Positions 16,054 to 26,538 of a stretch of 64,000 nucleotides of DNA are shown one piece after another (the first letter of the stretch is position 1; every line of letters starts with the position of its first letter). Under the pieces are notes generated by a model. That model saw only the letters and a list, made by a program, of their open reading frames with translations. It was not told where the DNA came from and ran no database searches. The translations under genes were made by a program, and so were the position numbers. This DNA is from Candidatus Rokuibacteriota bacterium (GTDB lineage: Bacteria > Methylomirabilota > Methylomirabilia > Rokubacteriales > CSP1-6). The stretch covers positions 1 to 64,000 of the forward strand of contig QHSX01000060.1 of the NCBI GenBank assembly GCA_003221695.1, given 5' to 3'.

Positions 16054-17958
16054 TCACCGCCCGGCCTCGCCCACGGGGCCGGGGTCCACCGGCACCTCGG
16101 CGACCAGCGGGAGGACGACCGTGAAGACGGTGCCGCCCGCGCGCCCGCTCCGGAAGACGATCGTCCCTCCGTGCTCCTCGACGATCTTGTGCGCCAGCGC
16201 GAGGCCGATCCCTGTGCCGCCCTCCTTCGTCGTGTAGAAGGGAGTGAAGATCCGGTCGCCCGCGGAGGGGGGAATACCCGGTCCGGTGTCCTCGACCTCG
16301 AGCTTCACGCGGCGGTCGGGCGGCCGCCGGCGGGACGGCAGAAGCGGATCACGGCTCTCGCTCCACCAGACACGGAGCGTGAGCCGGCCTCCGCCCTCCA
16401 TCGCGTCGAGCGCGTTCGCGACGAGATTGACGGCGACCCGATAGAGCGCCTCCGCGTCCGCCTGGACGGGCGGCACGTCCCGCGCGTACTCGCGGACCAC
16501 GACGACCTGCCGCGCCTCGATCTGATTGGCGTACAGCTCGACCACGCGGTCGAGCAGGGCGGGCAGCCGCACGAGCGTCAGGCTCATCCGCGCGGGACGC
16601 GCCAGCTCGAGGAGCCGCTCCACGATCCCGTTGATCCGCTCGAGCTCGCGGGGCACCACGCTGTGGAACTTCTCACGGAAGTGCGGGTCGTCGAACCGCC
16701 GCTCGAGATGGCGGGTGAACGTGAGGAGCGAGGTCAGCGGGTTCTTGATCTCGTGGGCCAACCCCGCGGCGAGCGTGCCGAGCGCCGCGAGCTGGTCTGA
16801 GCGCCGGAGGTCGTGCTCGAGCTGCCGCACGAGCGTGAGGTCGCGGAAGACTCCGATGACGCCCAGGTCCTTGCCCTCGCCGCCCTTGAGCGGCGCCGTG
16901 CTCAGTTCGATCGGGACGGTGGACCCGTTCCGACGACGGAGCGTCAGCGGCACGTTCGGGATCGCTGTGCGGCTGACGAGCGTCTCCATGAGGATGTCGC
17001 TCAGCTCCGGGGTGTGCGCGAAGGCCTCGCTGCAGTAACGCCCCGCCACCTCGCCCTTGAAGAAGCCCGTGAGCAGCTCGGCGACCGGGTTGAGGGTCAC
17101 CACCCGCCCGTCCAGGTCCACCGACACGATGCCGTTCGTGAGTGACGCCAGGATGTTGTCGGTGTACGACTTGAGATCGACCAGCTCGACAACGTGCCGC
17201 TGGAGCTCGGCATTCGCGTCCTCGAGCGCCCCGCGCTGCTGAACGAGCTGCACGGCCATGTGGTTGAACGCCGCGGCGAGCCCCCCGATCTCGTCGGCGG
17301 TCGTCGGCTCGATGCGCTGCGCCAACTCGCCTCGCGAGATGGCCGCCGCGCCCTCGGCGAGCCGCTGTACCGGGCGCGCGATGCGTCGGGCCACGAGCGC
17401 CGCCGCGAGGCCGCCCAGCAAGAGCACGACGAGCGTGAGCGCGCCGAGCTCGAGCCGGGTCCTGCCGATCTCCGCCTCCATCCGCTGCTTGGAGAGCCCG
17501 ACGCGGATCGTGCCCCACTTCCGCCCTTCCACCTGCACCGGAACGGCGAAGTCGTAGATCGCCTCGCCCCGCGACGTCACGGTCTCCTGGACCAGGAGCT
17601 CGCTCGCCAGGGCCGCCCGCCGGTGGACGAGCCCTTCCAGCACGGCGCCGACGCGCTCGGGGTCCCGGCTGTGGGCGGCCACCCTGCCGTCGGCGTCCAG
17701 CACGAGGGCATAGACCACGTCGGCCTCGCCCGCGACCCGGGCGACGTTCTGCTCGAGCGCGGTGTAGTTGTAGAGAAGCAGTGGCCCGTAGGAGATCGCC
17801 GCGAGGTTACGCGCGATGACCTCGCCGCGCCGCTGCACCTCCGCGATGATCGCGGCGCGCTGCCGGTGATCGACCACGACCATGACGGCCGTCATGACGA
17901 ACGCGATCACGAGCAGCGTGCCCAAGAGGAGCTTGGTGCGGAGTGAGCGGAGCTTCAT
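16054..17958 (-). CDS. Membrane sensor histidine kinase with HAMP and PAS domains
   Basis: 634 residues. TM1 at 8-28, a periplasmic sensor region about 30-170 with a single-Cache-like look ([14 protein letters not shown]), TM2 at 172-192, HAMP about 190-243, a coiled coil, PAS about 262-375, HisKA with the phospho-acceptor H402 in [15 protein letters not shown], and an ATPase domain ending with [19 protein letters not shown]. The ATG overlaps the stop of the peptide-type binding protein (ATGA), so the two are translated together and the binding protein may present a ligand to this kinase. The likely partner is the sigma54 regulator at 20018-21376. Last gene of the minus-strand cluster. Confidence 0.92.
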
Positions 17959-19619
17959 CGCCGTGGCTCGAGCCAGACTTTCCGCAACGGGATGTACGGG
18001 TCGCCGAGGCCGTTCACCTCGACGCTCCGCACGTACGGCTGGAAGAGCCGTTCGTAGGTGTGGTGCATCATCGGGATGAGCGGCGCGTCGTCCAGCACGA
18101 GCTGCTCGACACGCCGGTACAGCTCGACCCGCCGCTGGATGTCCGGCGCGTTCCGCGCGGCCACGAGCACGTCGTCGACCACCGGATTCGAGTACCGGAA
18201 GAAGTTGCGCGCGCTCTTCGAGTAGAAGAGCTTGAACAGGAAGTTGTCGGGGTCGGGAACGTCCGCGTACCAGGCGTACGCGAAAACGGGGAGCTTGCCC
18301 TCGTCGAGCATCCTCGCGAACGCCGGCCAGTCGGTAAGGTAGTGGACCTCGGCCTGGACCCCGACGGCCGCCAGCGCCCTCTTGATCTGCTCCTGCTCGC
18401 GGACCAGGTCCTCGCGCTTCGCGCCCGACCAGATCGCGATCGGAGGAAGGCCGCGTCCCTCGGGATAGCCCGCCTCAGCGAGCAGCTCGCGCGCCCGCCG
18501 GGGATCATAGGGATAGCCGGTGAGCCCCGGGTTGAAGCCCTGGGTGCCGGGCGGCAGGACGCCGCGCGCCGGGACGTAACGTCCGAGGAAGACCTCCTCG
18601 ACGATGGCCTCACGATTGATCGCATAGACCAGCGCCTGGCGGACCCGTCGATCGTCGAGCGGCTTCAGGCGCGTATTGATCCCGTAGAACCTCACGCCGA
18701 TCATCGGCCGCTTGACGTAGATGTGGCCACCGCTCGAGACGACCCGCCGATAATCTCTGGACGGGACCGGGGCGTCCTCGAGATTCCCCCGCTGGAACTC
18801 CTCGTAGACTGCCTCCCAGCGCTCGCCGGCGAAGATACGGTAGACGACACGCGAGAGATGCGGAGAACCCCCGAAGTAATCAGCGTTCGCGGCGAGCACG
18901 ATCTCCTTGCCCCGTTCCCAGCGCTCGAACTTGAACGGCCCCGTGCCGACCGGCTGGGAGCCAAACGCGTCGCCGAGCTGCTCGACGACGTCCTTTGGCA
19001 CGATCTTGGCGTGGCCGACCGCCAGCACCGCGACGAACGGGGCCGCCGCCTCCTCGAGCGTGACCTGTACGGTATAGCGGTCCTGAGCGACGAGCCCGGC
19101 GACGCTCTTGGCGCGGCCCTCGCGGAATTCGCGTCCGCCCCTCACGTTGCTGAAAAGATCGGCCGCGCCAGACCGGGTCTTGGGATCGAGGAGCCGCGCC
19201 AGCGAGTACACGACGTCCTCGGCGGTCATTTCGCGGCCGTTGTGGAAGCGCACGCCCTTCCTGAGCGTGAACGTCCACGTGAGCCCGTCACGCGACGCCC
19301 TCCAGAACTCGGCAAGCGCCGGTGCCACGGTCAGCGTCTGGTCGAACTGGACGAGCCCGTCGAAGATCTGCTGGGACACCGAGCGGCTGTAGATGTCGGT
19401 GATCCGCGCCGGGTCGAGGGTTTCCGGGTCGTGGCCGAGCGGGCGGCGATAGATCCCGCCCGTGGCGATGACTTGTTTTTTTTGCTCCTGCGCGGCGACC
19501 AGCGCAGGCTCGACGGCCGAGTGCGCGAGCAGGAGGACGGCGAGGAGGAAGAGGGGAAGAACTCCCCTCTTCCCCCTGCCGCGTCGCAGGCAGCCGTGTC
19601 GCAGGCGGCTGGTCTGCAA
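17955..19619 (-). CDS. Peptide-type (SBP_bac_5) extracellular solute-binding protein
   Basis: About 554 residues. After an export signal (basic stretch, then VLPLFLLAVLLLAHSA, cleavage expected near LVAAQ) come the DppA/OppA-family landmarks: PETLDPARITDIYS, QQIFDGLVQFD, LRKGVRFHNGREMTAEDVVYS, GTGPFKFERWERG and AWYADVPDPDNFLFKLFYS. The start is uncertain: no ATG or GTG suits, and TTG 19619 gives a normal signal peptide; the longer frame upstream overlaps the microprotein gene. A run of eight A (19483-19476, mRNA sense) lies after the signal. No permease or ATPase genes are adjacent, so it may serve as a ligand receptor for the overlapping kinase gene rather than for transport. Confidence 0.85.
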   Translation of the reverse strand: MQTSRLRHGCLRRGRGKRGVLPLFLLAVLLLAHSAVEPALVAAQEQKKQVIATGGIYRRPLGHDPETLDPARITDIYSRSVSQQIFDGLVQFDQTLTVAPALAEFWRASRDGLTWTFTLRKGVRFHNGREMTAEDVVYSLARLLDPKTRSGAADLFSNVRGGREFREGRAKSVAGLVAQDRYTVQVTLEEAAAPFVAVLAVGHAKIVPKDVVEQLGDAFGSQPVGTGPFKFERWERGKEIVLAANADYFGGSPHLSRVVYRIFAGERWEAVYEEFQRGNLEDAPVPSRDYRRVVSSGGHIYVKRPMIGVRFYGINTRLKPLDDRRVRQALVYAINREAIVEEVFLGRYVPARGVLPPGTQGFNPGLTGYPYDPRRARELLAEAGYPEGRGLPPIAIWSGAKREDLVREQEQIKRALAAVGVQAEVHYLTDWPAFARMLDEGKLPVFAYAWYADVPDPDNFLFKLFYSKSARNFFRYSNPVVDDVLVAARNAPDIQRRVELYRRVEQLVLDDAPLIPMMHHTYERLFQPYVRSVEVNGLGDPYIPLRKVWLEPRR

Positions 19620-19660: not shown

Positions 19661-19792
19661 CTAGGACGCCCCGCCGTCGGCGGTACCAATCGCCTGGAAG
19701 AACTGAGTCGAACCCGACGTCCCGGACTCGATCACCGGAGCCACCAGCAGGAACGATACGATCGCCGCGAGAACCGCCAAGACCTTCGTCAT
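19661..19792 (-). CDS. 43-residue exported/hydrophobic microprotein under sigma54 control
   Basis: Frame from ATG 19792 to TAG 19663-19661, with a strong ribosome site GGAGGGAG ending 3 bases before the ATG. The N-terminal half (MTKVLAVLAAIVSFLLVAPV) looks like a signal peptide or single membrane segment; the tail IESGTSGSTQFFQAIGTADG ends GAS. No Cys. It is the first gene after a sigma54 promoter and is followed after 41 bases by the peptide-type binding protein and kinase. I do not recognise a family. It could be a secreted peptide signal, a RiPP precursor for the nearby YcaO/TfuA, or a small membrane regulator of the kinase; a leader peptide is the dull alternative. Confidence 0.7.
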   Translation of the reverse strand: MTKVLAVLAAIVSFLLVAPVIESGTSGSTQFFQAIGTADGGAS

Positions 19793-19821
19793 GACTCCCT
19801 CCTCGAATTGCTCGAGTTGCG

Positions 19822-19864: not shown

Positions 19865-19880
19865 AGCAAATCGCTCGCCA
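19865..19880 (-). promoter_or_regulatory. Sigma54 (-24/-12) promoter driving the microprotein-SBP-kinase genes
   Basis: On the minus strand the sequence is TGGCGAGCGATTTGCT, matching TGGCacG-N4-TTGCa with the invariant GG and GC exactly 10 bases apart. It lies about 73 bases upstream of the microprotein ATG and just downstream of a gene for a sigma54 activator, with palindromic sites 100-120 bp upstream. Confidence 0.8.
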
Positions 19881-19958: not shown

Positions 19959-19995
19959 TGCACCATAGCGGTGCACTTGCACCAATGTGGTGCAA
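19959..19995. promoter_or_regulatory. Tandem palindromes, probable activator (UAS) sites
   Basis: TGCACC-N5-GGTGCA (19959-19975) and TTGCACC-N5-GGTGCAA (19977-19995) are two copies of one palindrome, centred 19 bp apart. They sit 101 and 120 bp upstream of the -12 element, the usual place for sigma54 activator binding. A further TGCACC half-site precedes them at 19949-19954. The adjacent response regulator is the natural candidate to bind them. Confidence 0.75.
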
Positions 19996-20017: not shown

Positions 20018-21376
20018 CTACGAGGACTTCCATCGCGCGAGCATCCGCTTGAGCGAGTTCCGATGGACTCCGAGGATCCTCGCGGCCTCACTCTGGTTGC
20101 CCTTGACGCGCTCCATGATGCGCAGCACGACCTGACGCTCGAACTGCTCCGAGGCCTGCTTCAGGGGCAGTCGCTCGGCCCGGCGGACCTTGAGACGGTG
20201 CTCGGGCAGGAGGACGTCGAGGGGCAGGTCGTTGAGCTCCACGAGTGGGTCTTCCGCCAAGACCACGCAGCGCTCGATCACGTTCTGGAGCTCACGGACG
20301 TTGCCGGGCCACCGGTATTCCTTCAGCGCGGTCAGCGCCTCGTGGGACAACCCGTCGACCCGCTTGTTGAACTCGCGGGTGTAGCGCCGGACGAAGTGGT
20401 CCACGAGCAGCGGGACGTCCGTGAACCGCTCCGACAGCGGGGGCACCTCGATTGGCACGACGTTCAGCCGGTAGTAGAGGTCTTCGCGGAAGCTCCCGGC
20501 CCGCATCGCTTCCTTGAGGTCCACGTTCGTCGCCGCGACGACGCGGACGTCGATCTTGATGGACCGCGTGCCGCCGACACGCTCGATCTCGCGCTCTTGG
20601 AGCACGCGCAGCAGCTTCGCCTGGAGCTCGGCCTTGAGGGTGCCGATCTCGTCGAGGAAGAGCGTGCCCCCCTGCGCGAGCTCAAACTTCCCGAGCTTGC
20701 GCGCGTGGGCGCCCGTGAACGCGCCCCGCTCGTGGCCGAACAGCTCCGACTCGATGAGCGACTCGACGATGGCCGCGGGGTTGACGGCGACGAAGGGCTT
20801 GTCGCGGCGCGGCCCCTGGGCGTGGATCGCGCGTGCGATGAGCTCCTTACCGGTGCCGCTCTGCCCCGAGACCAACACCGTCGCGGTCGTCGGCGCGACC
20901 TGCGCGATCATCCGACGAAGCTTCTGCATCGCCGGGTGCTGGCCCACGATCTCCTCGGACGCCATGGTGCGCGCCAGCTCGGCGCGCAGGAAGGCCACCT
21001 CGCGCTCCAGCGCGCGCTTCTCGAGCGCGCGACGGACGAGCTGGAGGAGCTCGTCCTCCTCGAAGGGCTTCGTCAGATAGTCGAACGCCCCGAGCTTCAT
21101 CGCGGCCACCGCGGTGCGCACCGTCTTCACCGCCGTGACCAGGATCACCTCGACGCCGTCGTCGATCGTCTTGATCCGTTCGAGGACCTCGATGCCGTCC
21201 ATCTCGGGCAAACGGATGTCCAGCAGCACGAGGTCGACCTGGGAGGCGCGCACGGTCTCGAGGGCCTGCGGACCGTCGGGGACGTCGAGCACGTCGTAGT
21301 GGTCTTCGAGGATCAGCCGGAACGATTCCCTGACACCCGGATCGTCGTCAACGACCAGGATCACTGGCCGAGGCAT
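20018..21376 (-). CDS. NtrC-family sigma54-dependent response regulator
   Basis: 452 residues. Receiver domain with acidic pocket DDDPG and phospho-acceptor D53 (LLDIRLPEMDG), conserved Lys in YLTKPF; AAA+ domain with Walker A GQSGTGKE, the sigma54-contacting GAFTGA loop and Walker B GTLFLDEIGTL; C-terminal Fis-type helix-turn-helix NQSEAARILGVHRNSLKRML. When phosphorylated it should activate sigma54 polymerase. It starts 18 bases after the TfuA-like stop, so it appears co-transcribed with YcaO and TfuA. The sigma54 promoter and palindromes immediately downstream make the microprotein, binding-protein and kinase genes its likely targets, with the kinase as cognate sensor. Confidence 0.93.
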   Translation of the reverse strand: MPRPVILVVDDDPGVRESFRLILEDHYDVLDVPDGPQALETVRASQVDLVLLDIRLPEMDGIEVLERIKTIDDGVEVILVTAVKTVRTAVAAMKLGAFDYLTKPFEEDELLQLVRRALEKRALEREVAFLRAELARTMASEEIVGQHPAMQKLRRMIAQVAPTTATVLVSGQSGTGKELIARAIHAQGPRRDKPFVAVNPAAIVESLIESELFGHERGAFTGAHARKLGKFELAQGGTLFLDEIGTLKAELQAKLLRVLQEREIERVGGTRSIKIDVRVVAATNVDLKEAMRAGSFREDLYYRLNVVPIEVPPLSERFTDVPLLVDHFVRRYTREFNKRVDGLSHEALTALKEYRWPGNVRELQNVIERCVVLAEDPLVELNDLPLDVLLPEHRLKVRRAERLPLKQASEQFERQVVLRIMERVKGNQSEAARILGVHRNSLKRMLARWKSS

Positions 21377-21394: not shown

Positions 21395-22645
21395 CTATCG
21401 AAGCGTTTCCGGCACGTGGCGGCCGAGGAACGCGAGCATCTTATCCAGCGCGTCCTTCACCGGCCGATGTCCGTCACCATCCTTCCAGAGGATGGACGAG
21501 GGACTGAACCACGCCTCACGCATGCGTTTCGCCCGAGCGAGACGCTCCCGCGCTGACGCGATCTGTGCGGCGAACTGCCGACCGCGCGGCGAAACCCGGA
21601 GACGGTTCCAACTCGGGAAGCCATGGTTCGTCGCGATCTCGTCCTGAGCCAGCCGCCGGTCGCGCTCTCTCGGGGCCAGCCCGGCATCGTCCGCCGCCCG
21701 TGACGCCCGCTCGACGGCCTGCAGCCGCATCAGCTCGGCGTCGAGTTGGTGCGCCTGCTCGAGATCCCGCCAGGTCGAGCGCGTGAACGAATCGAGATCC
21801 CGAACCAGCGCCTCGAGTGGCAACGACGAGCGGGGCAGATGTCGCAGGAGGCGCCCGCTGCCGATCAACCATTCGAGGAGCAGCCTCGGCAGGCGCTCGG
21901 GATCGACGCCGCCGGTCGCGTCATAGCCGCGCTCGCGGGTCGCTTCCGAGCGTGCGAATGGACCGTCGCGCCGCCGGCGATGACGGGAGGCGAGCGTACC
22001 CGCGTCGCGCAGCATCTCCCCAACCCAGGAAAGCGCTCGCTCGGCATCCGCGCGCTTGAGATCGAGTCGCGCACAATATTCCATGAGCTCCGGTCGCACT
22101 CCTCCGACCCTCCGCAGCACCTCGTGCCAGGTGCGCTCGGGGTAGTAGATCGCCGCTGCGGTGCTCACGATCTGCCGTGCGGTCGCGCGATCGAGCAGTC
22201 GACGCCGCACGGCCCGCGCGACCGCGTACCGCACGTTGACGAGGGGGAGCGACACCGCCGCGTCCGAACCGTCGGCACTGACCGTCACGGCCACGTCCTC
22301 GTCGCTCTCAAGAACGCCCATGCGATACAGCCGGTAGATCAGCCCGATGCCCTTCGCCCCTGCGGGCCAGCAATCGGCGGCGCGCAAGGCGCCCATGCTG
22401 GAGGCGCCCACGACCATCGCCCCGTCCTCGAGCACGTCGACAACCTCGCGTGGCGACACGGCATCCTCGTGCATGAAGACGCCATCGATGATGAGAAACC
22501 CCCACGCGCCGAGCTCGCGCTCGTGATAGAGATCGTTCCGGCGGATGGGCGGCCGCAGGTCGAGGCCGGGACACACGCGCCCGGCCTCCGCGCGGGAGAT
22601 CGACGGGCCCACGAACGCGAGCATCGGGCGGAGAGCGCCACTCAC
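21395..22645 (-). CDS. TfuA-like protein
   Basis: 416 residues from GTG 22645, which overlaps the YcaO stop as GTGA; ATG 22624 is an alternative. The first 140 residues form the TfuA core: LAFVGPSISRAEA, DLRPPIRRNDLYHERELGAW, FLIIDGVFMHEDAVSPREV, GASSMGALRAADCW. The remaining 270 residues are a charged helical extension I do not recognise. TfuA proteins partner YcaO enzymes to install backbone thioamides, in methyl-coenzyme M reductase in methanogens and in some peptides such as thiovarsolins; TfuA was named from trifolitoxin production. Methyl-CoM reductase is not expected in this genome, so a ribosomal peptide substrate is more likely here. Confidence 0.88.
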   Translation of the reverse strand: MSGALRPMLAFVGPSISRAEAGRVCPGLDLRPPIRRNDLYHERELGAWGFLIIDGVFMHEDAVSPREVVDVLEDGAMVVGASSMGALRAADCWPAGAKGIGLIYRLYRMGVLESDEDVAVTVSADGSDAAVSLPLVNVRYAVARAVRRRLLDRATARQIVSTAAAIYYPERTWHEVLRRVGGVRPELMEYCARLDLKRADAERALSWVGEMLRDAGTLASRHRRRRDGPFARSEATRERGYDATGGVDPERLPRLLLEWLIGSGRLLRHLPRSSLPLEALVRDLDSFTRSTWRDLEQAHQLDAELMRLQAVERASRAADDAGLAPRERDRRLAQDEIATNHGFPSWNRLRVSPRGRQFAAQIASARERLARAKRMREAWFSPSSILWKDGDGHRPVKDALDKMLAFLGRHVPETLR

Positions 22646-23901
22646 AAGAGGTGTCGAAAGCAGCGTGGCCCGGGCCGACGCATATTCACGCTGTAGGGCG
22701 ATAGATGTGGGATTCGCACACGCACCACCGGGATCGACCAGGAAGGGTGCGTCAAGTCCACCGCGACGCACTGCCGCACGCCGACCTTGGCCAGGCGCGC
22801 GAGCAGGAACTCGAGATCCTCGCGCAGGTCCGCCGACTTGAAGCCCCGGACGCCGGAGAAGCTCCGCCGCCGCAGCCGCACCGCGCCGGTGCTCCCCGTG
22901 GTCGGCGTCGGCGAACGAGGAGGGGTGCGTATCCGGTTGTACGAGTCGCGGGCCGCCTGGATCACGATCAGCCGCGACTGGATGGCCTCCGAGAGCGCGC
23001 GGAACACTGCCACATCGGGGTCGGGATGGGTGCCGGAGCCGAAGAACCGCCGCGGGCGACGGTCGCCTCCGGGCGCCGGGTAGTGGGGGTCCAGCAAGAG
23101 GGCATGGAACGTGGGGACACCGACGTCGGTGGTGATATCAAGGACGTCCAGCTGAAGCCCGGCGCGCGCAATCCGCTCCGCCCATTCGAGGGCCTGCGAG
23201 GGCAGCGTCCCCAGGTCGATGGGTACGAGGGCGCGAGCGTGCTTTTCATGGTCACCAAACGCCGCGATGAAGAGAATCTGACTGAACGCATCACGCTCGA
23301 TGACCTCGCAGATCGCGTGCGCGACGGCTTCGAGGTGGATGTTACCGGAAGCGACCCCATTGGTGTCGACGTCGCGCAGGATGCCCTCGACCGGCGGCGT
23401 GATGACGAGGTCGAGAGGGATCAGGACGTCGCGACCGGCGAGGAGCTCGCGCCCCTGCACCCACGTGAAGCGCGAGTCTGGACGAAAAGCGGTGTCCGCG
23501 GGCAGGTCGAAGGCGAGCGGGTCGACGGGCGGCAGCGGCCCGGCTCGCTCCAGCTCCTGATAGGAGCCGACGACAGTCGGCGCGAAGGTGTGCTCCGCCG
23601 ACACCCGCTCGACCGCCTCCATCATCGCGCTCACTCGAGCCGCCTCTCGCGTCGCCCCCTTCCCGTTATGGACTTTGAGGTCTCGCGCGAGCGGGGTGAC
23701 TGCGGAGTAGACGGGCAGCCGCAGCTCGTCGAGCGGCGCCAGGTCCACCACTCGTGATATCGGAACACGTCGCGCGATGCTCTCGACCCGCGCGCGGGTC
23801 TCGGCGACGACGACGCAACGCTCTCCGGCGTCGACCTTGAGCGTCGACGCAAACGCCCAGGGGCCCGCGCCGGGCTCAGGCTCAGGCACAGCGACGCTCA
23901 T
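22642..23901 (-). CDS. YcaO-domain ATP-dependent cyclodehydratase/thioamidase
   Basis: 419 residues from ATG 23901, preceded by AGGGGCG; the open frame extends further upstream but with shadow-like composition. YcaO signatures are HNGKGATREAARVSAMMEAVER (Glu residues of the ATP/Mg site lie in this stretch), the VVGSYQELER region, the second acidic site ICEVIERDAFSQ, and TFHALLLDPHYP. YcaO enzymes use ATP to activate a peptide backbone amide, giving azolines, thioamides or amidines depending on partner. The overlapping TfuA gene points to thioamidation. No peptide precursor is adjacent on the same side; the microprotein at 19661-19792 is the nearest candidate. Confidence 0.9.
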   Translation of the reverse strand: MSVAVPEPEPGAGPWAFASTLKVDAGERCVVVAETRARVESIARRVPISRVVDLAPLDELRLPVYSAVTPLARDLKVHNGKGATREAARVSAMMEAVERVSAEHTFAPTVVGSYQELERAGPLPPVDPLAFDLPADTAFRPDSRFTWVQGRELLAGRDVLIPLDLVITPPVEGILRDVDTNGVASGNIHLEAVAHAICEVIERDAFSQILFIAAFGDHEKHARALVPIDLGTLPSQALEWAERIARAGLQLDVLDITTDVGVPTFHALLLDPHYPAPGGDRRPRRFFGSGTHPDPDVAVFRALSEAIQSRLIVIQAARDSYNRIRTPPRSPTPTTGSTGAVRLRRRSFSGVRGFKSADLREDLEFLLARLAKVGVRQCVAVDLTHPSWSIPVVRVRIPHLSPYSVNMRRPGPRCFRHLL

Positions 23902-24030
23902 CGCCCCTGCCTCAAGCGAGGCGACTCGCGACCCGCGTCGCAGTGAACGCCACGTGCCCCGTCGCGGCCGGCATCTTCCATCGTCGCCCGGGCGGAACTC
24001 TAACACCGTTGTGGCAGGCGCCGCGAGGGG

Positions 24031-25245
24031 CTATCGCCGCTTCCAGATCGTGATGCTTCCGTCTCGTCCGCCGTGGAGGGTCACGATCTCGAAGAGCCCG
24101 TCGCGATCGAGGTCTGCCAGCGTGATGCTGTGGAGGAGCGACAACCCCTTGGTCGGCAGGCCGCTCTCCTGAACCAGACGCCACGCGCCCTTTCCATCGC
24201 CCCTGAACCAAAAGAGCCCGTAGCCATCCCGGACGTCCCCCGTGATGTTGCCGCCGGCGACGATATCGAGGTTCCCGTCTCCGTCGAGATCTCCGATCGC
24301 GGCCCCGGCCGAGCCAAATTTCAGCACTTTCAATCCGACGGACGAGGCCCTCCACCCACCGCGGCCGTCCCCCAGATAGACGTCGGGCCCGTTGGGCTGA
24401 CCGCGGCCGGCGACGGTTCCGTTGATCGCGAGATCGGGATGGCCGTCCTTGTTGACGTCACCGACGGCGAGCGACTGAAACTCCCGCGTCTCGGAGTAGA
24501 AATCCACGGGACCGCCGGTGAAGCCGCCCCGCCCATCGCCGTAATAGGTGTAGGCCCCCCGGCGTTGAAACGCCGCCACCAGATCGAGGTGACCGTCGTG
24601 ATTGAGATCCGCCACGACGAGGGCACGACCCGGCATGGTCTGTCCGGGTCGAGCCTCGGGAAGCGCGGCGTGGAATCTCCAGTTCCCTTTCCCATCGCCG
24701 AAATAGATTTCGACGGCGGCCTTCTGATACCCGAGCAGGACCAGATCCAGATAGCCGTCCCCGTTGAGATCGGCAAGCTCGGCCGCCACATACCCGTCCT
24801 CTCTGCGGAGAACCTTTTCGACGAAGCCTCCGCGGCCATCGCTCAGGAGGGTCTGCACCCGCCCGAAGTGGCTGGCCGCCACGATGTCCGGGAATCCGTC
24901 GCCGTTGATGTCGCCGGTGGCGAGGGCGGCGTAGCCGATGTCGGTCCAGGTGGGCGTGGTCGGGGTGAAGTTGCCCTTGCCGTCACCCAGCCATCGCTGG
25001 AGCGCGGGTTTCGCCAGGCGTGCCGTCGCCACGAGATCGAGGTGCCCGTCTCGGTTGAGATCGACCGCGAGCGGCCGAAAGCGCCACTCGGTACCCGATC
25101 CAATGGTGAGGGCCTTCGCGTAGGTGGGAGGGAGAGCCTCCGAGTCGGCCGGAGTGGGCGGCGTGGAGTGGAAGAGACCGGCGCAGCCAGCGACGAGTCC
25201 AACCGCGGTCACCGCCCCGAGCCATCTTTTCCCCGGGCCGAACAT
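24031..25245 (-). CDS. Lipoprotein with seven FG-GAP/VCBS calcium-binding repeats
   Basis: 404 residues. The signal ends in a lipobox (LVAGCAG), so it is probably anchored in the membrane by lipid. Seven DxNxDGxxD-type loops recur at near-regular spacing: DLNRDGHLDL, DINGDGFPDI, DLNGDGYLDL, DLNHDGHLDL, DVNKDGHPDL, DLDGDGNLDI and DLDRDGLFEI. Each is linked to a GDGKGNF-like strand. The pattern predicts a complete seven-bladed, integrin-like beta-propeller with Ca2+ in every blade and no extra domain. Role unknown; adhesion or ligand binding outside the cell is plausible. It lies 129 bases upstream of YcaO on the same strand and could share its transcript. Confidence 0.85.
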   Translation of the reverse strand: MFGPGKRWLGAVTAVGLVAGCAGLFHSTPPTPADSEALPPTYAKALTIGSGTEWRFRPLAVDLNRDGHLDLVATARLAKPALQRWLGDGKGNFTPTTPTWTDIGYAALATGDINGDGFPDIVAASHFGRVQTLLSDGRGGFVEKVLRREDGYVAAELADLNGDGYLDLVLLGYQKAAVEIYFGDGKGNWRFHAALPEARPGQTMPGRALVVADLNHDGHLDLVAAFQRRGAYTYYGDGRGGFTGGPVDFYSETREFQSLAVGDVNKDGHPDLAINGTVAGRGQPNGPDVYLGDGRGGWRASSVGLKVLKFGSAGAAIGDLDGDGNLDIVAGGNITGDVRDGYGLFWFRGDGKGAWRLVQESGLPTKGLSLLHSITLADLDRDGLFEIVTLHGGRDGSITIWKRR

Positions 25246-25279
25246 GGCTCTCCTCTCTCACAAACGGTCTCTGGCCGGA

Positions 25280-25318
25280 CAAAATACAACGGGGGCTAGG
25301 TTGACACCCAGCCCCCGT
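25280..25318 (-). terminator. Intrinsic terminator of the 25342-26538 gene
   Basis: ACGGGGGCT and AGCCCCCGT (25289-25297, 25310-25318) form a perfect 9-bp stem, followed on the minus strand by TGTATTTTG. It lies 24 bases past the stop codon of the exported protein gene. Confidence 0.8.
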
Positions 25319-25341
25319 GCCGCCACGCCGTGCTTGGCGAG

Positions 25342-26538
25342 TTAATCCGGCCCACCACCCCCGCCCGCCCCACTCGGGGCGAAGATCGTCGGGACCGATG
25401 TGCTGTCGTTATAGAGCGAGTACGCGTACTCCCGGACGAGAGGTACGCCGAGGAGCTGTTCGGGTGCCGTGACGGTGCATTTGATTCTCGTGTGTTCGTT
25501 CATGCCGATGCCGACCGTGCGCTGGACACAACCCGGTGGCAACGTCAGCTGGCTGGAATACGCGGGGGGCGGGAGGTTGATGATGATTGGATCCAGGGTC
25601 AGTGCCGGCGCCGTGACGGGCAGCTCGACGCCCTCAATCGTCTCGGCGATTGCGACCAGCGTCACGGGCCCCGTGTCCTGCGCCGCGGCGGCGGACTCGA
25701 CCAGCCCTTTATTGGCAAAGACCGTGGTCAGGTCCGGGTTGATGTCCGTCAGCCGGACCTGGCTCCAGCAGGTGAAGCTCGTGGACGCCGAGATCATCCG
25801 CTCGTCTTCACTGTAGAAGTTGAGGTCCACGAAGGTCGGATTGTTCGGACGGTTGGAAAGAACATCCAGCGTGAGGAGAGTCAGGGACGTCCGAACGTCG
25901 GGGGAGCTGCTCTCATACCGAACCGTCCCGAAGATCTTCCCCGTGATCGCCCGGTATTCATTCCCGTCGAAGGCAAGGGCGCCATCACCGTTCGCGTCGG
26001 TCGGGTCACCAGTCTGTAACCACTTGGCCGCCTGGATGGGGAGGGCGTTGTACGCGCGGGCCGAGGTCGGGGATTCTCGGATGACCGCGTCGCCGATCAG
26101 CCCGTCGAACTTGATCGCGTTGCCGGCATTGTCCACGACCCAGGCGATCAGATAGCCCCGGTCACAGAGGGGCGTCGTGGAGACGTCCTCAGGGCTGAAG
26201 ACGAGCGTTCCGTTGACCGTGGTTGCAAGGGTGAAGGCGGACTCTGCACAGCGGCTCGGGTCTGCCGGGTCGCTGCCGCCGGGGCAGACCCAGAGGGCTC
26301 TGAGCAAAACCTCCTGGCCGCTGGTCAAGCACGAGGAGCCCTTGGGGCAGGTCACGCTGATCTCGAACTGGGTCGTTGGGAGACAAGCCTGGTCGGGCGT
26401 CTCGACGACCCCACGGACGAACTTGGGGAACACGATCACGCTGCCCGGCGCCTCGGAGTCATTCGGCCCCCAGGCGCCGACCGGCGTCACTACTCCGAGG
26501 GTCAGAACCATGATGAACAAGACGCCTAGCCATTGCAT
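25342..26538 (-). CDS. Exported protein of unknown function
   Basis: 398 residues with a clear Sec signal (LGVLFIMVLTLGVVTPVGA, cleavage before WG) and a mature N-terminus APGSVIVFPKFVRGVVETP. About ten cysteines suggest disulfides. One Ca2+-binding-type loop DANGDGALAFDGNEY is present. The C-terminus is Gly-rich and ends GGGGGPD. I do not recognise a named family; similar VIVFPKF starts are, as far as I recall, common in uncharacterised secreted proteins. It stands alone on its transcript, with a strong terminator after it and a LuxR-type regulator gene 248 bases upstream on the same strand. Confidence 0.75.
   Translation of the reverse strand: MQWLGVLFIMVLTLGVVTPVGAWGPNDSEAPGSVIVFPKFVRGVVETPDQACLPTTQFEISVTCPKGSSCLTSGQEVLLRALWVCPGGSDPADPSRCAESAFTLATTVNGTLVFSPEDVSTTPLCDRGYLIAWVVDNAGNAIKFDGLIGDAVIRESPTSARAYNALPIQAAKWLQTGDPTDANGDGALAFDGNEYRAITGKIFGTVRYESSSPDVRTSLTLLTLDVLSNRPNNPTFVDLNFYSEDERMISASTSFTCWSQVRLTDINPDLTTVFANKGLVESAAAAQDTGPVTLVAIAETIEGVELPVTAPALTLDPIIINLPPPAYSSQLTLPPGCVQRTVGIGMNEHTRIKCTVTAPEQLLGVPLVREYAYSLYNDSTSVPTIFAPSGAGGGGGPD

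Follow-up and report, generated by a model that had tools for sequence, protein, structure and literature searches.

What is a frame of 43 codons doing between the gene for a response regulator and the gene for a solute-binding protein, and is it a gene at all? The frame lies in the window, by which we mean the whole stretch of DNA analysed here: 64,000 nucleotides of contig QHSX01000060.1 (assembly GCA_003221695.1) from Candidatus Rokuibacteriota bacterium. The first-pass annotation took the frame for an unannotatable microprotein and offered three roles for its product: a signal, the substrate of a YcaO enzyme, or a regulator of a kinase. We argue that the frame is a real gene. With moderate confidence we also propose that it encodes a single-pass membrane protein, which would be the dedicated sigma54 output of a sensor made of a solute-binding protein (SBP), a histidine kinase and a regulator, and which would feed back on that sensor. 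Of the three earlier roles, the kinase regulator and the signal are both possible. The features that the argument uses are collected in Table 1.

Table 1. Features of the microprotein locus, in coordinates of the window
Feature	Position	Strand	Basis or remark
Histidine kinase: sCache_3_2, HAMP, PAS, HisKA, HATPase	16054..17958	-	start overlaps SBP stop
SBP_bac_5 peptide-type solute-binding protein	17955..19616	-	Pfam PF00496; start codon uncertain
Strong hairpin after the microprotein, over SBP signal-peptide codons	19539..19582	-	dG -34.6, z -4.6
Microprotein gene, 43 aa + stop	19661..19792	-	translation, homologues, purifying selection
Ribosome-binding site GAGGAGGGAG	19795..19804	-	read just 5' of ATG; relatives with purine-rich SD
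5'UTR stem-loop, 9-bp stem, AUGGN loop	19822..19844	-	covariation; best match of its model in genome
Sigma54 (-24/-12) promoter TGGCGAGCGATTTGCT	19865..19880	-	sequence match, also conserved in distant clades
Palindromic enhancer site TGCACC-N5-GGTGCA, proximal	19959..19975	.	predicted
Palindromic enhancer site TGCACC-N5-GGTGCA, distal, 19 bp from proximal	19978..19994	.	predicted
NtrC/ZraR-type response regulator: receiver, sigma54 activation domain with GAFTGA, Fis-type HTH	20018..21376	-	
TfuA and YcaO genes	21395..24006	-	accessory, 3/38 loci

The frame is a gene

The minus-strand translation of 19661-19792 is MTKVLAVLAAIVSFLLVAPVIESGTSGSTQFFQAIGTADGGAS*. Of the 57 genomes that share the window's family, 38 carry a single close homologue each (E values from 1e-9 to 2e-21, 55-100% identity), and no internal stop interrupts any of these frames. 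A 39th match in these genomes (E 0.94) was dismissed as chance. The first-pass annotation had proposed to compare synonymous and non-synonymous change in relatives, and the comparison reveals purifying selection: among 41 sequences pN is below pS in 816 of 820 pairs, with medians of 0.52 for pS and 0.20 for pN, and the nearest relative stands at dS 0.47 and dN 0.07. Constraint is stronger on the C-terminal part (pN 0.14) than on the hydrophobic part (pN 0.28). A frame broken by indels beside kept flanking genes had been named as the finding that would count against a gene. We found none, and the frame is intact wherever its neighbourhood is assembled. Because the homologues lack internal stops and nearly every pair is under constraint, chance is excluded and, judged by its sequence, the frame is a genuine gene. 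The strong ribosome site reported earlier is also there, directly before the ATG. The evidence for the microprotein is stronger than the first-pass annotation supposed.

The family reaches well beyond close relatives. A profile search matched 49 of 94 sampled Methylomirabilota genomes at E<=0.05. We count homologues in 47, leaving out G087 and G093, whose matches (E about 0.02) are chance-level. All the genomes surveyed are draft assemblies, and those with record titles are metagenome-assembled. The profiles extend the family to f2, f3, f5, f7 and f9, further families of the phylum, with distant members such as MKKLMVLVLVVLGLLAVMPAMEIDSSTQVFSRVGMAEGGGGD (L111) and MKRTILTLVAAAILAASALLVVPTFESESTPVVSGIGMADSGM (L185), and for the two matches in f7 (E about 1e-6) synteny gives further support. 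Weak matches of 12-13 residues in G038, G039 and G040 (L115-L117) fall in unrelated 48-aa frames and were taken as chance. Outside the phylum the survey is one pattern-limited scan of 84,980 species genomes, which returned Rokubacteria only and could therefore miss more distant relatives elsewhere. The label of unannotatable holds for the family libraries: scanning 37 members against Pfam and NCBIfam gave no convincing family, MgrB and ZraP-type families included. A PDB profile search with the microprotein gave no relative, and literature searches turned up nothing about the family, nor about small proteins of Rokubacteria.

A membrane anchor with a conserved tail

Aligned homologues begin with M-x-K, continue with a hydrophobic stretch that ends in FLLxAPVIES, and close with GTSGSTQxFQA[IV]GTA[DE]GGG. 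The small polar tail noticed at first pass is thus present and conserved; it is 22 residues long and carries the motif ESGTSGSTQxFQAxGTADGG. A Lys or Arg precedes the 18-residue hydrophobic stretch, and none follows it in 43 of 48 homologues. Since the Lys lies before the stretch and Lys or Arg is usually missing after it, we read the microprotein as a probable single-pass membrane peptide, anchored N-in/C-out. AF2 predicts a confident helix at residues 1-20 and a low-confidence tail. The N-terminus had been called signal-like. It is indeed hydrophobic, but it is better read as a membrane anchor, for by a simple rule (not SignalP) only 1 of 48 homologues has a cleavage motif of the A-x-A type close to where the stretch ends. 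Cys is absent from 47 of the 48, and metal-ligand motifs were not found in the microprotein.

Tail residues 33 and 37 switch jointly, FQAxGT versus FVAxGN, in several genera, and they also do so inside genera (G007 and G009 versus G008; G055 versus G054). When columns of the SBP, kinase and regulator are compared with this switch, many separate by divergence alone, and there are only 3-5 FVAxGN sequences.

The sensor module

The gene order around the microprotein is constant: NtrC-type response regulator, microprotein, family-5 SBP, histidine kinase. This synteny is common to families f1, f2, f3, f5 and f7; in f9 the contig stops at the microprotein, with the regulator adjoining. The kinase that a kinase regulator calls for is thus encoded in the same conserved module. 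Searches with the SBP, kinase and regulator find the module all-or-none across the 57 family genomes. The apparent exceptions (G011, G046, G052 and G053) each have a contig end beside the missing piece, and the whole module is absent from 15 genomes, two of them in the window's own genus. An orthologous regulator (at least 69% identity) occurs only in genomes that bear the module, and the regulator paralogues examined, at about 60% identity, have no adjoining microprotein. In 94 genomes the microprotein was never found away from the regulator-SBP-kinase module, beyond chance-level matches.

The nature of the partners is informative as well. At the loci examined there are no transporter or permease genes beside the SBP, so the SBP may be a sensor. 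Its gene is linked to those of both kinase and regulator, and judged by this arrangement the module would be of the three-component kind. The nearest solved relatives of the SBP are dipeptide-, heme- and oligopeptide-binding proteins, the pheromone receptor PrgZ among them, and ZraR is among those of the regulator. An AF2 model of the kinase made without an alignment reached a pLDDT of 41, too low to be of use.

Promoter and operators

The microprotein had been described as the first gene behind a sigma54 promoter, and we agree. The promoter starts 88 nt before the ATG and has the required GG-N10-GC spacing. Such a box is found at 37 of 38 close loci (at L057 by eye), typically 77-101 nt before the ATG. 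The only close locus without it is L061, where YcaO/TfuA is inserted with TfuA directly upstream. Among distant loci 9 of 10 have the box by filter, and the tenth has TGGCACAACCCATGCT. Between the regulator gene and the promoter lie the paired palindromes. The palindromes take the form CGCCCAG-N3-CTGGGCG in the clade whose regulator has the HTH VGWNLTEAGRIL..HRNSLRVKL, which shows operator and HTH varying in step. A -24/-12 promoter, enhancer sites and an adjoining gene for a GAFTGA activator are what mark a gene as a sigma54 output, and the microprotein has all three.

Perfect double palindromes occur only five times in the whole genome. The other four (L152 8499; L153 8468 (-); L154 7905 (-); L155 8062) each stand before a -24/-12-like sequence, and the genes after them encode an SBBP-repeat lipoprotein, a MASE1 hybrid kinase, a receiver-kinase hybrid and a receiver protein. 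These sites, by their likeness to the paired operator, may form a small regulon to which the same regulator would bind.

Hairpins on both sides of the microprotein gene

The 5'UTR hairpin was aligned in 29 sequences selected for showing it, so the 94.6% of cells that are paired leans upward; changes on both sides, seen at 8 of the 9 pairs, are harder to explain in this way. Its covariation score was reached by 0 of 500 shuffles, and sliding the partner by one column lowers pairing to about 62%. The covariance model has a single strong match in the window's genome, which is the microprotein locus, and in relatives with the module the best match is also there. In G002, the closest relative, there is a second AUGGN-loop hairpin (31 bits) away from the microprotein locus, at L172 (G002:C30:1900-1922). 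No known RNA family matched the hairpins at gathering threshold.

A second hairpin follows the stop codon, with a median z of -2.9 across loci and 30 of 44 below -2. In the Rokubacteria family it overlaps the signal-peptide codons of the SBP. In f5 and f7 it resembles, in most cases, an intrinsic terminator complete with U-tract, and several of these loci have a readable TTGACA promoter for the SBP gene. Terminators placed between microprotein and SBP argue for the microprotein as a dedicated output of the regulator itself; as the f5 and f7 sequences read, the sigma54 promoter would there drive only the microprotein.

Proposed function and its alternatives

We believe that feedback on the sensor, or an accessory sensor subunit, is the simplest reading, because the microprotein is a dedicated product of the regulator, its SBP and kinase partners are constant, and its exposed tail is near-invariant. 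The reading builds on what is visible when the sequences are compared: the gene and its conservation, the module linkage, the promoter, the covariation of operator and HTH, the 5' hairpin, and the terminators of distant clades. The mechanism would run as follows. Detection of a ligand by the SBP and kinase would lead to phosphorylation of the regulator, and the phosphorylated regulator, on its paired palindromes, would make the sigma54 promoter fire. The short mRNA with hairpins near both ends would then yield microprotein in abundance, and SBP and kinase in smaller amounts. The peptide would insert N-in/C-out, and its conserved tail would touch either the SBP or the periplasmic portion of the kinase, so that signalling is tuned. 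We infer the phosphorelay, the topology, the abundance, and both the tail contact and its sign.

The main rival, and the most interesting alternative to feedback, is a peptide autoinducer. The precursor would be exported and trimmed, the SBP would capture the fragment and signal through the kinase to the sigma54 promoter, and the result would be a self-amplifying loop of quorum or self-sensing. Several observations fit: the adjoining SBP belongs to the peptide-binding cluster, counts PrgZ among its solved relatives and, having no permease genes beside it, may be a sensor; the induced transcript opens with the gene for a small peptide whose exposed tail is very conserved; and the hairpin layout suggests peptide in excess over receptor. 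However, a conserved signal-peptidase site is absent (1/48), the module has no exporter or protease gene, and the tail is nearly invariant between species, unlike typical pheromones, which evolve in specificity. We therefore think an autoinducer unlikely.

Many small single-pass membrane proteins act without contact with a sensor, and the microprotein could be one of these: an independent membrane effector, associated with stress or transport and made on demand. In every clade the regulator has the microprotein as its conserved target, and in f5 and f7 the microprotein has its own terminator, as such an effector might. One would expect an effector to turn up in other settings too, however, and the strict confinement of the microprotein to its module (chance-level matches aside) makes us doubt this reading.

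The neighbourhood of the window's microprotein also includes the YcaO-TfuA pair. The called frames (TfuA 21395-22771, YcaO 22642-24006) overlap by about 130 bases, and the GTG start of TfuA is probably too early. Upstream of YcaO, at 24031-26538, are two genes, one for a 404-aa protein with FG-GAP repeats and the other for a protein of 398 aa that has no Pfam match. Neither is found at the microprotein loci of relatives. TfuA occurs in 5 of 94 genomes of the phylum. The pair stands at the microprotein locus in three genera (L046, L061, L135), in two arrangements and with 68-85% identity between genera. Of four genomes with a close TfuA, three have it at this locus; in the fourth (G041) it lies at the end of a contig, close to lon and dnaK. 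Such recurrence is more than chance would give. This and the Gly-rich tail, which is chemically possible as a target, favour a RiPP precursor or a thioamidation substrate of the pair, a role that we nonetheless largely reject as highly improbable and cannot see as the general function, since the pair is absent from 35 of 38 close loci, the peptide is equally conserved without it, the three loci that have it show no distinctive peptide residues, and Cys is almost entirely missing from the family.

Significance and comparison with known systems

The comparison adds an unnamed and deeply conserved microprotein family, which a sigma54 sensor module makes as its dedicated product. The family belongs to a mostly uncultured phylum of soil and groundwater bacteria. 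To our knowledge small protein regulators of kinases come from few lineages. The promoter, operators, hairpins and partners are defined by comparison, so the role is directly testable in a heterologous reporter strain. If a secreted signal were the true answer, this would be a rare peptide-signalling circuit outside the Gram-positives; as an autoinducer it would form a phylum-wide circuit in a Gram-negative-type lineage, with a regulator that amplifies the peptide gene.

The nearest analogy for an autoinducer is PrgZ, which captures cCF10 in enterococci (PMC7117660) and is likewise a family-5 SBP; the short peptide that it captures derives from a small precursor that is secreted. The PrgZ systems differ in being Gram-positive, with an intracellular receptor and no kinase or sigma54 loop. 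For the SBP as a co-sensor the parallel is CuaD, an SBP that binds its kinase (PMC10384115). In CuaD-CuaS-CuaR the SBP gene also lies beside a two-component system, but the SBP is a sugar-binding one, there is no microprotein, and both organism and regulator are different.

For the microprotein itself there are two models. MgrB, a protein of 47 aa, inhibits PhoQ (PMC8404706). The microprotein resembles it in size, in its one membrane helix after an N-terminal Lys and in its exposed C-terminal tail; by analogy, its expression would also be driven by the partner regulator and the sensor kinase would be its likely partner. It differs from MgrB in having no sequence match (Pfam), no conserved Cys, sigma54 control and an SBP-linked module. 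ZraP is reported to repress ZraSR (Appia-Ayme 2012, cited in PMC6737893; PMC10848872), and like ZraP the microprotein would be, to judge from its sequence, an extracytoplasmic accessory product; its gene likewise adjoins those of a kinase and of a regulator of the NtrC family. ZraP, however, is a soluble periplasmic chaperone linked to zinc, whereas the microprotein, with about 43 aa too short for that family, is by hydropathy a membrane peptide, with no metal-ligand motifs and with an SBP as partner. Our best reading of these analogies is that the microprotein would work like MgrB or ZraP and is a member of neither family.
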